A stretch of DNA of 64,000 bases, from contig JANYDW010000007.1 of the NCBI GenBank assembly GCA_025363455.1, positions 62,001 to 126,000 on the forward strand, written 5' to 3'. Under the pieces are notes generated by a model that ran no database searches, was not told the origin of the DNA, and was given only the letters and a program-made list of their open reading frames with translations. Position numbers and translations under genes: made by a program. This document shows, in pieces, positions 14,455-63,833 of this stretch. How positions within the stretch are numbered: the first letter of the stretch is position 1; every line of letters begins with the position of its first letter. Origin of the DNA: Oleiharenicola sp. Lineage in GTDB: Bacteria > Verrucomicrobiota > Verrucomicrobiia > Opitutales > Opitutaceae.

Positions 14455-15699
14455 ATGCCACTCAACCCTCAACGCACCATCGCCGAACTCAAGGAACTGC
14501 GCGCGTTCACTGGCGACGAGAATGGCGCGCAGCGCGTGGCGTTCACGCCGGTGTGGGTAAAGACGCGGGCGTGGCTGAAAGGGAAGCTCGCGAGCCTGCC
14601 GGTCGAGACGCACACGGATGCCGCGGGGAACTTCTGGGCAACGCTTCCCGGCGAGAGCGACCGGGCGTTGCTCATCGGCGGACACATGGACTCGGTGCCG
14701 AACGGCGGCTGGCTCGACGGCTGCCTGAACGTCATGGCCGGCGTGGAGATTCTGCGGCGGCTTAACGAGCAATACAAGGGCCGGCCGCCGGTCACGGTGC
14801 GCATTGTCGACTGGGCAGACGAGGAGGGTGCGCGTTTCGGCAAAAGCCTGTTTGGTTCGTCGGCGTGCTCGGGCAAGCTCGACATGGCCGAAGCTCGCGG
14901 GCTGAAAGACAAGCAAGGCATCACGCTGCCCGATGCACTGAAGGCCATCGGCATCGACTTTGAGAAGGTGAAGGACAGCGGCGTGGAACTGAAGAACGCC
15001 GCGGCTTATCTGGAACTGCACATCGAGCAGGGGCCGGTGCTGCTGGACCTGGATTTGCCGCTCGGCGCGGTGCTCGGGACCTTCGGGGTGGAACGACATG
15101 CGGTTACCTTCCACGGCCAGGCGGCGCATTCCGGCAGCACACCGATGAACCGGCGCAAGGATGCCTTCCTCGCCGCCGCCAAGATGAGCGCGGAGAGCTA
15201 CGAGATTGCCCGGCGCAGCGGAAACGGCGTTTGCACGATCGGTTCCTGCACGACCAAGCCCGGCATTGTGACCAGTGTGGTCGAGGAATGCCGGATCACC
15301 CTCGATCAGCGTCATCTCGACGCGAAGGCGCTCGCCCAGATGCTCAAGGAGGCGAGGGAGGCGAGCGAGCGTTTCGCCAAGGAAGGCAATGTGCGCGTGA
15401 CCTGGGAACGCATCTGGCAGATCGAGCCGCGGCCCTTCGATCCCGAACTCATTGAGCTCTGCGATGCGGCAATCAAGGAAACGGTGCCGAAGTTGCACCG
15501 CCTGCCCTCGGGCCCGTTACATGACGCCGCCGAGACCTGCGGTGCGGGTGTACCGACGGTAATGATGTTCGTGCAGAGCCTGCATGGCATCAGCCACAAC
15601 AAGATCGAGGACACGAAGGAGGAGCATCTCGAATTGTGCGTGAAGGCCTTCGACAAGCTGGCAAGCAAGACGATAGCCTGGGTGGCGGCTCGGAGGTAG
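14455..15699 (+). CDS. M20-family amidohydrolase (beta-ureidopropionase / N-carbamoyl amino acid hydrolase)
   Basis: Hydrolyses an N-carbamoyl amino acid to the amino acid, CO2 and ammonia; here most likely N-carbamoyl-beta-alanine from dihydropyrimidinase. The 414 residues from the ATG at 14455 contain the di-metal ligands H77 (GGHMDSV), D88 (GWLDGC), E123/E124 (ADEEGARFG), H189 (LHIEQGPVL) and a C-terminal HGISHN. This is the AmaB/HyuC/PydC group. It diverges from preA. The stop codon TAG (15697-15699) is the TAG of the GGTAG end of the palindromic element that follows. Allantoate amidohydrolase is the main alternative. Confidence 0.85.
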   Translation: MPLNPQRTIAELKELRAFTGDENGAQRVAFTPVWVKTRAWLKGKLASLPVETHTDAAGNFWATLPGESDRALLIGGHMDSVPNGGWLDGCLNVMAGVEILRRLNEQYKGRPPVTVRIVDWADEEGARFGKSLFGSSACSGKLDMAEARGLKDKQGITLPDALKAIGIDFEKVKDSGVELKNAAAYLELHIEQGPVLLDLDLPLGAVLGTFGVERHAVTFHGQAAHSGSTPMNRRKDAFLAAAKMSAESYEIARRSGNGVCTIGSCTTKPGIVTSVVEECRITLDQRHLDAKALAQMLKEAREASERFAKEGNVRVTWERIWQIEPRPFDPELIELCDAAIKETVPKLHRLPSGPLHDAAETCGAGVPTVMMFVQSLHGISHNKIEDTKEEHLELCVKAFDKLASKTIAWVAARR

Positions 15700-15765
15700 G
15701 GCGCGACCGCTGAGCGCGCCGCAAGGACGTTCAGAAGACGGCGGGCCCAGCGGTCCCGCCCTACC
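15695..15765. repeat. 71-bp GTAG...CTAC element, family B; supplies a stop codon
   Basis: GGTAG + hairpin (GGCGCG, loop ACCGCTGAG, CGCGCC) + 19-bp linker + hairpin (GGCGGG, loop CCCAGCGGT, CCCGCC) + CTACC. The loops are nearly reverse-complementary. It fills the gap between two convergent genes: its left TAG is the stop of the M20 hydrolase, and the sufS stop begins 3 bases beyond its right end. Confidence 0.9.
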
Positions 15766-17740: not shown

Positions 17741-17812
17741 TGTAGGGCCCCCGCCTGCCGGCGGGCCGTTCGGCGAATGAAACCCGGCCCGGCGACGAGC
17801 GCCGGCCCTACA
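17741..17812. repeat. 72-bp GTAG...CTAC element
   Basis: Ends TGTAGGGCC/GGCCCTACA enclose two GC-rich hairpins, one built on GGCCC...GGGCC and one on GGCCGGCGC-type sequence. It lies 8 bases from the next element (17820-17875) in the 17630-17870 gap upstream of sufU. No other feature is visible there. Confidence 0.8.
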
Positions 17813-17819
17813 GGTATAG

Positions 17820-17875
17820 GGTAGGGCGCGGACTCCGTTCCGCGCCGCGGCGGTGAGCGGAGTCACCGCCCTACC
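17820..17875. repeat. 56-bp GTAG...CTAC element, family A; supplies the ndh stop codon
   Basis: GGTAG; stem GGCGCGGA, loop CTCCGT, stem TCCGCGCC; GC; stem GGCGGTGA, loop GCGGAG, stem TCACCGCC; CTACC. The layout is 5-8-6-8-2-8-6-8-5, identical to the elements at 41620 and 63096. On the minus strand the GGTAG end provides the TAG stop (17873-17871) of the NDH-2 fusion gene. Confidence 0.92.
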
Positions 17876-41619: not shown

Positions 41620-41675
41620 GGTAGGGCGGCGAGTCCCTTCGCCGCCGCGGCGCGGAACGGAGTCCGCGCCCTACC
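41620..41675. repeat. 56-bp GTAG...CTAC element, family A; supplies a stop codon
   Basis: GGTAG; GGCGGCGA-GTCCCT-TCGCCGCC; GC; GGCGCGGA-ACGGAG-TCCGCGCC; CTACC. Same 5-8-6-8-2-8-6-8-5 layout as 17820 and 63096. Turned round, its GGCGCGGA lobe matches the first lobe of the 17820 element exactly. Its minus-strand GGTAG end gives the TAG stop of the small coiled-coil gene. Confidence 0.92.
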
Positions 41676-62033: not shown

Positions 62034-63710
62034 GTGAAGACCCAGAGAATTTCCGGCCAGATCGTGGACCTGCGGACCCGACGCATTTATCCCGGGGTGG
62101 TCGAGTGGGCCGGCGGCCGGATCACGCGGATCGGCGCCGATGCCGGGGTGCGCGAGCGGCAGTTCATCGCGCCGGGTTTTGTCGACGCCCATATCCATAT
62201 CGAGAGCTCACTCCTGCCGCCGGCAGAATTTGCGCGCTGGGCCGTGGTGCACGGCACCGTGGCGACGGTTAGCGACCCGCACGAGATTGCCAACGTGTTG
62301 GGCGTGCCGGGGGTCGACTACATGATCCGCGAGGCCCGGCGCTCGCCCTTCAAGTTCAACTTCGGGGCCCCGTCGTGCGTGCCGGCCACGACCTTCGAGA
62401 CCGCCGGCGCCGCGCTGGACGCCCGGACCGTTGCGCGGCTCCTGGCCCGGCCCGAGATCAAGTATTTGAGTGAGGTCATGAATTTTCCCGGCGTGCTCGC
62501 TCGCGACGCTTCGCTGCTCGCCATGATCACGGCGGCGAAAAAACACGGCAAGCCGGTCGATGGCCATGCGCCGGGCCTGCGCGGGACGGCCGCTGCCCGG
62601 TACGCCGCGGCGGGCATCACGACCGACCATGAGTGCTTCACGCTGCCCGAGGCTCTGGACAAACTGAAGGCGCACATGAAAATCCTGATTCGCGAGGGCT
62701 CGGCCGCGCGAAACTTTGCCGCGCTGGCCCCGCTGGTGCGGTCGCATCCAGCGCAGGTGATGTTCTGCAGCGACGACCTGCATCCCGATTTGCTGATGGT
62801 GCGGCACCTCGACGAGCACGTGCGCCGCGCCCTGCGCGCCGGGGCTGACCGGTTCGACGTGCTGCGCTGCGCCTCGGTCAATCCGGTGGAGCACTACCAT
62901 CTGGATGTCGGTCAGCTGCGCGTGGGCGACCCGGCGGATTTCATCGTGTTCGAGGGTTGGAAGAATCTGAAGGTGCGACGCACTTACCTGCGCGGCGAAC
63001 TCGTCGCGCGCGATGGCCGGAGCCTGCTGCCGCGCCAGCCGGCTAAAACTCCGAACCACTTTAAGGCAAGGCCGAGAAGAGTGGGGGATTTTGCTTGTAG
63101 GGCGGCATCTCCGAATGCCGCCAAGGCGGGGTTCGGAGACCCCGCCCTACAGCTCAACGTCATTGAGGCCCTCAACGGCCAGCTGATCACGCACCATGGG
63201 CGGGAAGCCCCGCGCATTGTGGGGGACGCCGTGGGTTCGGATGTCAAACGCGACCTGTTGAAAATTGCCGTGATCAACCGCTATTCGCCGGCGGCGCCGG
63301 TGGCCATCGCCATAATCAAGGGCTTCGGGCTCAGGGCCGGAGCCATTGCCTCGTCGGTGGCGCATGATTCCCACAACATCGTGGTGGTCGGCGTGGACGA
63401 CGCCTCGCTTTGCGCCGCCGCCAACCTGGTGATCAAGGCGCGCGGCGGGCTCAGCGTGGTCGGACGCGGGCGGCGGGCCGTCTTGCCGCTACCCATCGCA
63501 GGACTGATGTCGGATCGAGACGGCCGGGTCGTGGCGCGGCGTTACACACAGCTGGATCGGATGGCCAAGGTCCTGGGCTCGAAACTCGATGCTCCCTTCA
63601 TGACCCTTTCCTTCATGGCCCTGCTCGTCATACCCGATTTGAAACTGAGCGACCGGGGGCTCTTCTCGGCTGCGTCGTGGGGGTTCGTTCCGGTCGCGGC
63701 GCCGGCCTGA
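62034..63710 (+). CDS. ade: Adenine deaminase carrying an in-frame palindromic insert
   Basis: Converts adenine to hypoxanthine in purine salvage, metal dependent. 558 residues from a GTG at 62034. Amidohydrolase domain: FVDAHIHIESSLLPP, VSDPHEIANVLG, MNFPGVL, GHAPGL, DHECFTLPE, SDDLHPDLLM. C-terminal domain: LITHHGRE, VAHDSHNIVVVG, LPLPIAGLMSD. Between DFA (residue 354) and LNVIEAL (374) are 19 residues (CRAASPNAAKAGFGDPALQ, 355-373) encoded exactly by a 56-bp GTAG...CTAC element plus one base. The E. coli enzyme, as I recall it, has only a few residues there. The frame is kept and all active-site motifs are intact. Confidence 0.93.
   Translation: MKTQRISGQIVDLRTRRIYPGVVEWAGGRITRIGADAGVRERQFIAPGFVDAHIHIESSLLPPAEFARWAVVHGTVATVSDPHEIANVLGVPGVDYMIREARRSPFKFNFGAPSCVPATTFETAGAALDARTVARLLARPEIKYLSEVMNFPGVLARDASLLAMITAAKKHGKPVDGHAPGLRGTAAARYAAAGITTDHECFTLPEALDKLKAHMKILIREGSAARNFAALAPLVRSHPAQVMFCSDDLHPDLLMVRHLDEHVRRALRAGADRFDVLRCASVNPVEHYHLDVGQLRVGDPADFIVFEGWKNLKVRRTYLRGELVARDGRSLLPRQPAKTPNHFKARPRRVGDFACRAASPNAAKAGFGDPALQLNVIEALNGQLITHHGREAPRIVGDAVGSDVKRDLLKIAVINRYSPAAPVAIAIIKGFGLRAGAIASSVAHDSHNIVVVGVDDASLCAAANLVIKARGGLSVVGRGRRAVLPLPIAGLMSDRDGRVVARRYTQLDRMAKVLGSKLDAPFMTLSFMALLVIPDLKLSDRGLFSAASWGFVPVAAPA
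63096..63151. repeat. 56-bp GTAG...CTAC element, family A, inside the ade coding sequence
   Basis: TGTAG; GGCGGCAT-CTCCGA-ATGCCGCC; AA; GGCGGGGT-TCGGAG-ACCCCGCC; CTACA. Same 5-8-6-8-2-8-6-8-5 layout as the intergenic copies at 17820 and 41620, with different stems. Read in the ade frame it has no stop codon: the GTAG is split as TGT AGG. The two loops are exact reverse complements. Confidence 0.93.
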
Positions 63711-63742
63711 GCGGAAAGGAGACGGAACACCAAAGTGATTGT

Positions 63743-63821
63743 TGTAGGAGCCTGTTTACAGGCGATTCGAAACTCGCGCCGACCGGCAACGTTCTGGATC
63801 GCTTGTAAACAAGCTCCTACA
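63743..63821. repeat. 79-bp GTAG...CTAC palindromic element (BIME-like), copy 2
   Basis: Begins TGTAGGAGCCTGTTTACAGG and ends AACAAGCTCCTACA; the arms pair with a few mismatches (CTGTTTACAGGCGAT / ATCGCTTGTAAACAAG). Exactly the length of the copy at 881-959, but with TTTACA where that has CTTGCA. It lies between ade and the last partial gene. Confidence 0.85.
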
Positions 63822-63833
63822 ACCCGCACAATT

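Follow-up and report, generated by a model that had tools for sequence, protein, structure and literature searches.

A GTAG-type REP dimer lies in frame in a linker of an Opitutaceae adenine deaminase, a site that holds different REPs in related genomes

Introduction

Rickettsia palindromic elements (RPEs) are palindromic repeats that lie in frame within conserved genes, and their translation has been reported (PMC2229807, PMC3733652); PMC2229807 reviews them along with further coding repeats. GTAG REPs, as presented in sections of Di Nocera et al, 2013 (PMC3733652), have stems of 6–9 bp and form dimers, with a spacer of 1–2 bp in some Opitutus terrae families; they are mostly intergenic, and some sit wholly inside ORFs, where dimers or groups code for 20–30 residues. 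Most of the intragenic copies described in those sections are in O. terrae, and at roughly one position in recB two Xanthomonas species carry REPs that differ. The GTAG motif is recognized by TnpA-REP, as stated in part of PMC8266576; for this group, passages of PMC12306157 contribute nothing further.

The window analyzed here (the whole stretch of DNA, 64,000 nucleotides) comes from an Oleiharenicola genome of 4.23 Mb in 83 contigs, referred to hereafter as G000. Its family, Opitutaceae, also includes O. terrae. An earlier note on this DNA had taken a coding GTAG BIME to be without precedent in the group; this was wrong, since such intragenic repeats had already been described there (passages of PMC3733652), and the phenomenon is therefore not new. 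Our literature search, which did not extend to the supplementary gene list of PMC3733652, retrieved no report of the ade case. New here is the occurrence of different REPs at one ade linker in related bacteria, mostly matched to lineage.

Results

A 56-bp REP dimer lies in frame within ade

Within ade, which looks intact, positions 63096–63151 of the window are occupied by a GTAG-type REP dimer (BIME) of 56 bp that keeps the reading frame. The gene, its domains, the element and two comparison copies are as follows:

62034..63710, plus strand: ade, adenine deaminase, 558 aa, GTG start (TIGR01178, E 3e-167, above cut-off)
62163..63005, plus strand: amidohydrolase domain, residues 44–324 (Pfam Amidohydro_1 PF01979, E 5.6e-36)
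63180..63671, plus strand: Adenine_deam_C domain, residues 383–546 (Pfam PF13382, E 2.5e-58)
63096..63151, plus strand: BIME (REP and inverted REP), 56 bp, codons 355–373 (evidence: sequence, genome copies, RNA fold, pLDDT)
63097..63122, plus strand: left REP, GTAG and 8-bp stem, loop CTCCGA (26/26 against one hairpin of G000:C15:48202-48262)
63125..63150, minus strand: right REP, inverted, hairpin and CTAC (26/26 against the other hairpin of G000:C15:48202-48262)
17821..17874, no strand assigned: comparison BIME of the same layout, no spanning ORF above 90/60-nt thresholds
41621..41674, no strand assigned: comparison BIME of the same layout, spanned by a minus-strand open frame that is not supported as a gene

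The element follows a 5-8-6-8-2-8-6-8-5 layout (T-GTAG / GGCGGCAT / CTCCGA / ATGCCGCC / AA / GGCGGGGT / TCGGAG / ACCCCGCC / CTAC-A), and shows the marks of a GTAG REP/BIME, with GTAG at the foot of the stem-loop and two REPs inverted relative to each other. The earlier note had attributed the same layout and GTAG/CTAC ends to copies near 17820 and 41620, and the layout is borne out at 17821–17874 and 41621–41674. Likewise, translation of the 62034–63710 ORF agrees with its claim that codons 355–373 are in frame and free of stops; they read CRAASPNAAKAGFGDPALQ, and position 63152 is the final base of codon 373, outside the 56-bp element. As RNA the element folds to -45.8 kcal/mol (z = -9.2), a value equaled by none of 200 shuffles.

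Other palindromes occur in the window. Directly after ade, at 63742–63824, lies a second type with two inverted arms (TTGTAGGAGC...GCTCCTACAA), unlike the GTAGGGC family. Further BIMEs are present at 15696–15764 and 17742–17811, the latter of a different stem type (GTAGGGCCCCCGCC...) and adjoining the 17821 copy.

The element had been placed in the stretch that joins the barrel to the C-terminal domain, and the Pfam matches (ending at residue 324 and resuming at residue 383) put it there. Outside the linker, dN/dS of ade was 0.13–0.17 against six relatives (Nei–Gojobori), with dS between 0.77 and 1.33 and thus near saturation. An AlphaFold2 model of Ade (42 aligned sequences) has a mean pLDDT of 91.3, and residues 360–367 are its sole run of at least three residues with pLDDT below 50; the closest solved structure to the model is the adenine deaminase 3nqb (TM 0.86, 30% identity), which a sequence search with Ade also retrieves. 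The TIGR01178 match, both Pfam domains, the dN/dS range and the 3nqb-like predicted fold uphold the claim of an intact gene. Because pLDDT, fold match and domain evidence concur, the element is modeled as a stretch of low predicted order, a floppy linker, between two intact domains. Judged from its sequence, it would be translated into 19 linker residues of a presumably active deaminase.

The element belongs to the resident repeats of the genome

A 91-bp query gave 46 matches in G000 (a count that includes ade and, at some places, both strands), and a strict two-ended pattern found 57 copies genome-wide versus none for the reversed control. Genome counts were taken from exact two-ended patterns because the generic GTAG-hairpin scan (stem of at least 7) was too noisy, returning 12 hairpins in 30 kb versus 8 in one mononucleotide shuffle. 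Both 26-nt ade hairpins are identical (26/26 and 26/26) to those of G000:C15:48202-48262, where the spacer differs; this copy lies 9 bases from a contig end and has no spanning open frame above the 90/60-nt thresholds. The ade element is one of G000's own resident GTAG repeats.

That we are looking at an ordinary linker, palindromic by chance and with no mobile origin, is scarcely credible. Linker length does vary in rows without a recognized REP (10–33 residues, 40 rows), but against this reading stand the identity of both hairpins to another G000 copy, the 57 genome copies versus a control of 0, the fold z of -9.2, and the absence of the element in G181 and G182 (below); we rejected it, since the genome copies already refute it.

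G000 has 11 Y1_Tnp (PF01797) matches. Among the 10 of these 11 that were inspected, one Y1 transposase gene (locus L158) has inverted GTAGGGCGGGATCG(C/T)TGATCCCGCC hairpins on either side, the layout of a REPtron; the loop of these GTAGGGCG hairpins is related to, but different from, that of the ade copy. Two further loci, L159 and L161, have the REPtron layout with other hairpin types, so that inverted GTAG or GTGG hairpins of three different types lie beside Y1 genes at these three loci. The ade element may have been mobilized by a RAYT of this kind.

In-frame copies elsewhere in the genome

We examined 57 two-ended copies in the window and 40 stretches chosen around copies (320 kb); this set, from a regular expression run on those sequences, differs from the equally numerous whole-genome pattern set, for which 50 places are listed. 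Eleven of the 57 (ade included) lie in frame inside genes with domain or homology support, so the proposal that the element can enter other coding sequences is answered by ten more in-frame copies in G000:

MiaB (locus L190): in-frame BIME between UPF0004 and radical SAM
MutL (L193): in-frame BIME between DNA_mis_repair and MutL_C
HrpA (L174): in-frame BIME in DUF3418
U32/TrhP-like gene (L183) and LpxB (L170): in-frame BIMEs
five TIR-TPR genes: in-frame BIMEs, two genes assigned by Pfam and three by homology

The TIR-TPR genes lie near one another (L195 and L178; contigs C64 and C42 of G000), and in all five paralogues the BIME sits in the linker that follows the TIR domain.

All 57 copies are open in two to four of the six frames. 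At thresholds of 250/150 nt (upstream/downstream), 22 of 57 had some spanning open frame, chance frames included, and 11 of these lacked gene support; the other 35 had no such frame, in keeping with a mostly extragenic repeat. A spanning frame at L163 was not counted as a gene, having no Pfam match, and the minus frame at L175 was not counted as an in-gene copy since its epimerase domain starts downstream of the element; also outside the gene count are spanning frames at L172, L175 (plus), L178:2197-3186, L178:8567-9469 and L183 (plus). About 85–90% of bacterial DNA is usually coding, and the 11/57 share is far below this, as expected if most gene insertions are purged.

Sites of the MiaB, MutL, LpxB, U32 and TIR-TPR copies were compared across 22 chosen genomes. 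The MiaB element is common to G000 and G116, where it is decaying, and absent from the remaining 19 genomes in which MiaB was matched. In MutL, a half-remnant is present in G180. Of 20 genomes in which LpxB was matched, G000 alone has the BIME. The U32 gene was matched in 20 genomes besides G000, none with a clear BIME at its site; G182, G027, G180 and G021 have other inserts there, and the insert of G180 may be what remains of a decayed element. A BIME is present in 6 of 25 aligned TIR-TPR linkers; one of the six belongs to a different genus (G127, L301), and another, in G000 (L313), is of a different type.

The ade linker in relatives

Close Ade sequences were found in 69 of 252 family genomes, and the linker was compared in all 69 (48 rows plus 21 rows). 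A REP or BIME occupies the linker in 10 of the 69, seven recognized by objective scans and three by eye. The exact two-ended pattern is positive in G000, G096 and G027; a hairpin scan adds G037, G180, G120 and G122 and, with G000 as the fifth, is positive in 5/69 linkers versus 0/1380 shuffled ones. This strict scan misses G096 and G027, which the two-ended pattern covers, and G171, G068 and G073, whose elements were recognized by eye.

All ten elements begin 4–10 nt past the same Asp/Glu-Phe (DF/EF) codons: at 4 nt in G000, G171 and G073, 8 in G122, 9 in G096, G027, G068, G180 and G120, and 10 in G037. The same-genus genomes G181 and G182 have a plain linker, so the residues are missing in close relatives. 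The refuting observation named in the earlier note, the same 19 residues on non-palindromic DNA, was found in none of the 69 genomes, with G095 similar at the ends only. In the ade gene of G095 (L015), which is sister to G073 on the tree, a short linker has end residues like those of filled linkers (ACR...LQLN); it may be a shrunken REP remnant and is counted as without element.

The interval after DF is 22 residues in G000 and 10 in G181 and G182. Across the 48-row alignment it spans 22–31 residues in the eight element-bearing rows and has a median of 11 (range 10–33) in the 40 rows where no element was seen; several rows without a recognized element are thus also long, and linker length alone is not diagnostic. 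Nineteen codons do hold the element, as had been claimed, but the net gain of G000 over plain-linker orthologues is only ~11–12 residues, with some 20 nt of the plain linker missing in G000; the event is therefore not a clean insertion of 19 residues. In G122 (L340) the decayed REP adjoins three tandem 30-nt units (LHPQTNVIEP LHPQANVIEA LHPKINVIEA).

Might the element be kept in ade for an advantage, for example as an mRNA hairpin tuning expression or stability, and not merely be tolerated? Both G000 stems are perfect despite wide divergence of the gene from its nearest relatives (dS about 1), as this would predict. We nonetheless consider it quite improbable: in G171, G180, G073 and G122 the palindrome is decaying without loss of the frame, no element is recognized in 59 of the 69 genomes, and similar in-frame copies sit in unrelated genes.

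Element types and number of events

The elements are of several types: CTCCGA/CGCCGA loops in G000 and G171, GTAGGGG in G037, GGCGA-stems in G096, G027, G068 and G120, GCGTTA in G180 and GGGGATT in G073. Each half-element of seven genomes was compared with the repeats of all seven genomes and with the other ade elements. For the six relatives, 74 of 133 two-ended repeats were used after removal of similar ones by hand (G096 26/48, G027 15/19, G171 5/5, G037 18/43, G180 2/3, G073 8/15), and the elements that G096 and G027 carry in ade were left out of their pools. The G000 pool was drawn from fetched stretches, and G068, G120 and G122 were not included. For 10 of 14 half-elements no other genome offered a closer repeat than the own genome, whose repeats were strictly best for 7. 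Ties involve the G096 halves (with G037) and the right half of G000 (with G073), and the own genome was not best for the right half of G171, both halves of G073 and the right half of G180. Set against every other ade element, own repeats were better for 11 halves, tied for 2 and worse for 1, in a comparison that favors the own pools, whose 4–48 halves mostly outnumber the 12 from the other ade elements. The G096 element matches a second G096 copy at 53/53 positions and is also identical to one G037 copy.

An Ade tree was built from the 48 rows with linker columns removed (24 of 45 inner branches starred; G120 and G122 absent). Presence in 8 rows requires 5 changes on the best tree versus a mean of 7.6 (minimum 5) over 500 shuffles, and is therefore phylogenetically clustered, although the backbone is weak and change counts cannot tell gain from loss. 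This clustering would suit one old ancestral insertion that descended vertically, was lost several times and was kept like the local repeats by gene conversion or recombination, as would the inner sequence GCCGAATGCCGCCAAGGCGGGG common to G000 and G171, whose elements may come from one insertion, and the start of all ten elements within 7 nt of each other. Such a history is possible, if rather doubtful, given that the elements are not alike in loop, stem, start (GTAGGGG, GTAGGGC, GTGGG) or frame of reading (CRA or VGR), that elements are mostly nearer to local repeats than to orthologous elements (the own pools being mostly larger), and that sister genomes with plain linkers are interleaved on the tree. 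Types that differ and are mostly like local repeats indicate either that insertion recurred or that inserts were converted to match the local family, alternatives that the data do not separate.

Discussion

It is highly probable, in our judgment, that the ade element is a GTAG REP dimer of the BIME/REPIN class, drawn from the resident repeats and carried in frame in a linker that has been repeatedly colonized or converted. We infer the order of events from the sequences compared. RAYT transposases (TnpA-REP, Y1 HUH) are thought to copy REPs of this class, and copies would land in many places; those in genes would survive mainly where the frame is kept and a linker tolerates extra residues. The ade linker would be such a sieve, occupied in several lineages by different resident REPs through repeated insertion or through conversion of an older insert.

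A stronger proposal is that the linker was colonized independently at least four or five times across the family, by different resident REP families, within 7 nt and with frame kept, which would make REPs a recurrent source of protein linkers; the TIR-TPR genes would show the same pattern in two genera. We hold the case for and against this to be evenly balanced. As for the earlier note as a whole, its mobile GTAG-type repeat, in frame in the linker of an intact gene, stands; its novelty and its clean addition of 19 residues do not, and the case is not unique.

On the reading of resident REPs entering or converting at this site, ade illustrates how a permissive linker lets REPs contribute new sequence to a conserved enzyme, and how one site can receive different repeats from lineage to lineage. 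The gene, with a product that is easy to assay, provides a natural test of the frequency at which small mobile repeats turn into protein.

Comparison with known systems

The ade element resembles RPEs in being palindromic and in frame within a conserved gene, and here the frame, domains and dN/dS fit a product that would stay functional, as read from sequence. It departs from them in size and sequence, RPEs being 105–146 bp or CGTC-tagged and the ade element 56 bp with GTAG ends. With the REPIN/BIME systems associated with RAYTs (passages of PMC8266576) it has in common two inverted GTAG hairpins and Y1 transposases in the genome; it differs in lying inside a gene, and the RAYT at L158 is flanked by a subtype with a different loop. 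The nearest likeness is to the GTAG REPs in the sections of Di Nocera et al (PMC3733652) cited above, with their GTAG end, short stems, dimers and some intragenic copies, to which the present work adds the comparison of one site, in ade, across 69 genomes and against each genome's own repeats.
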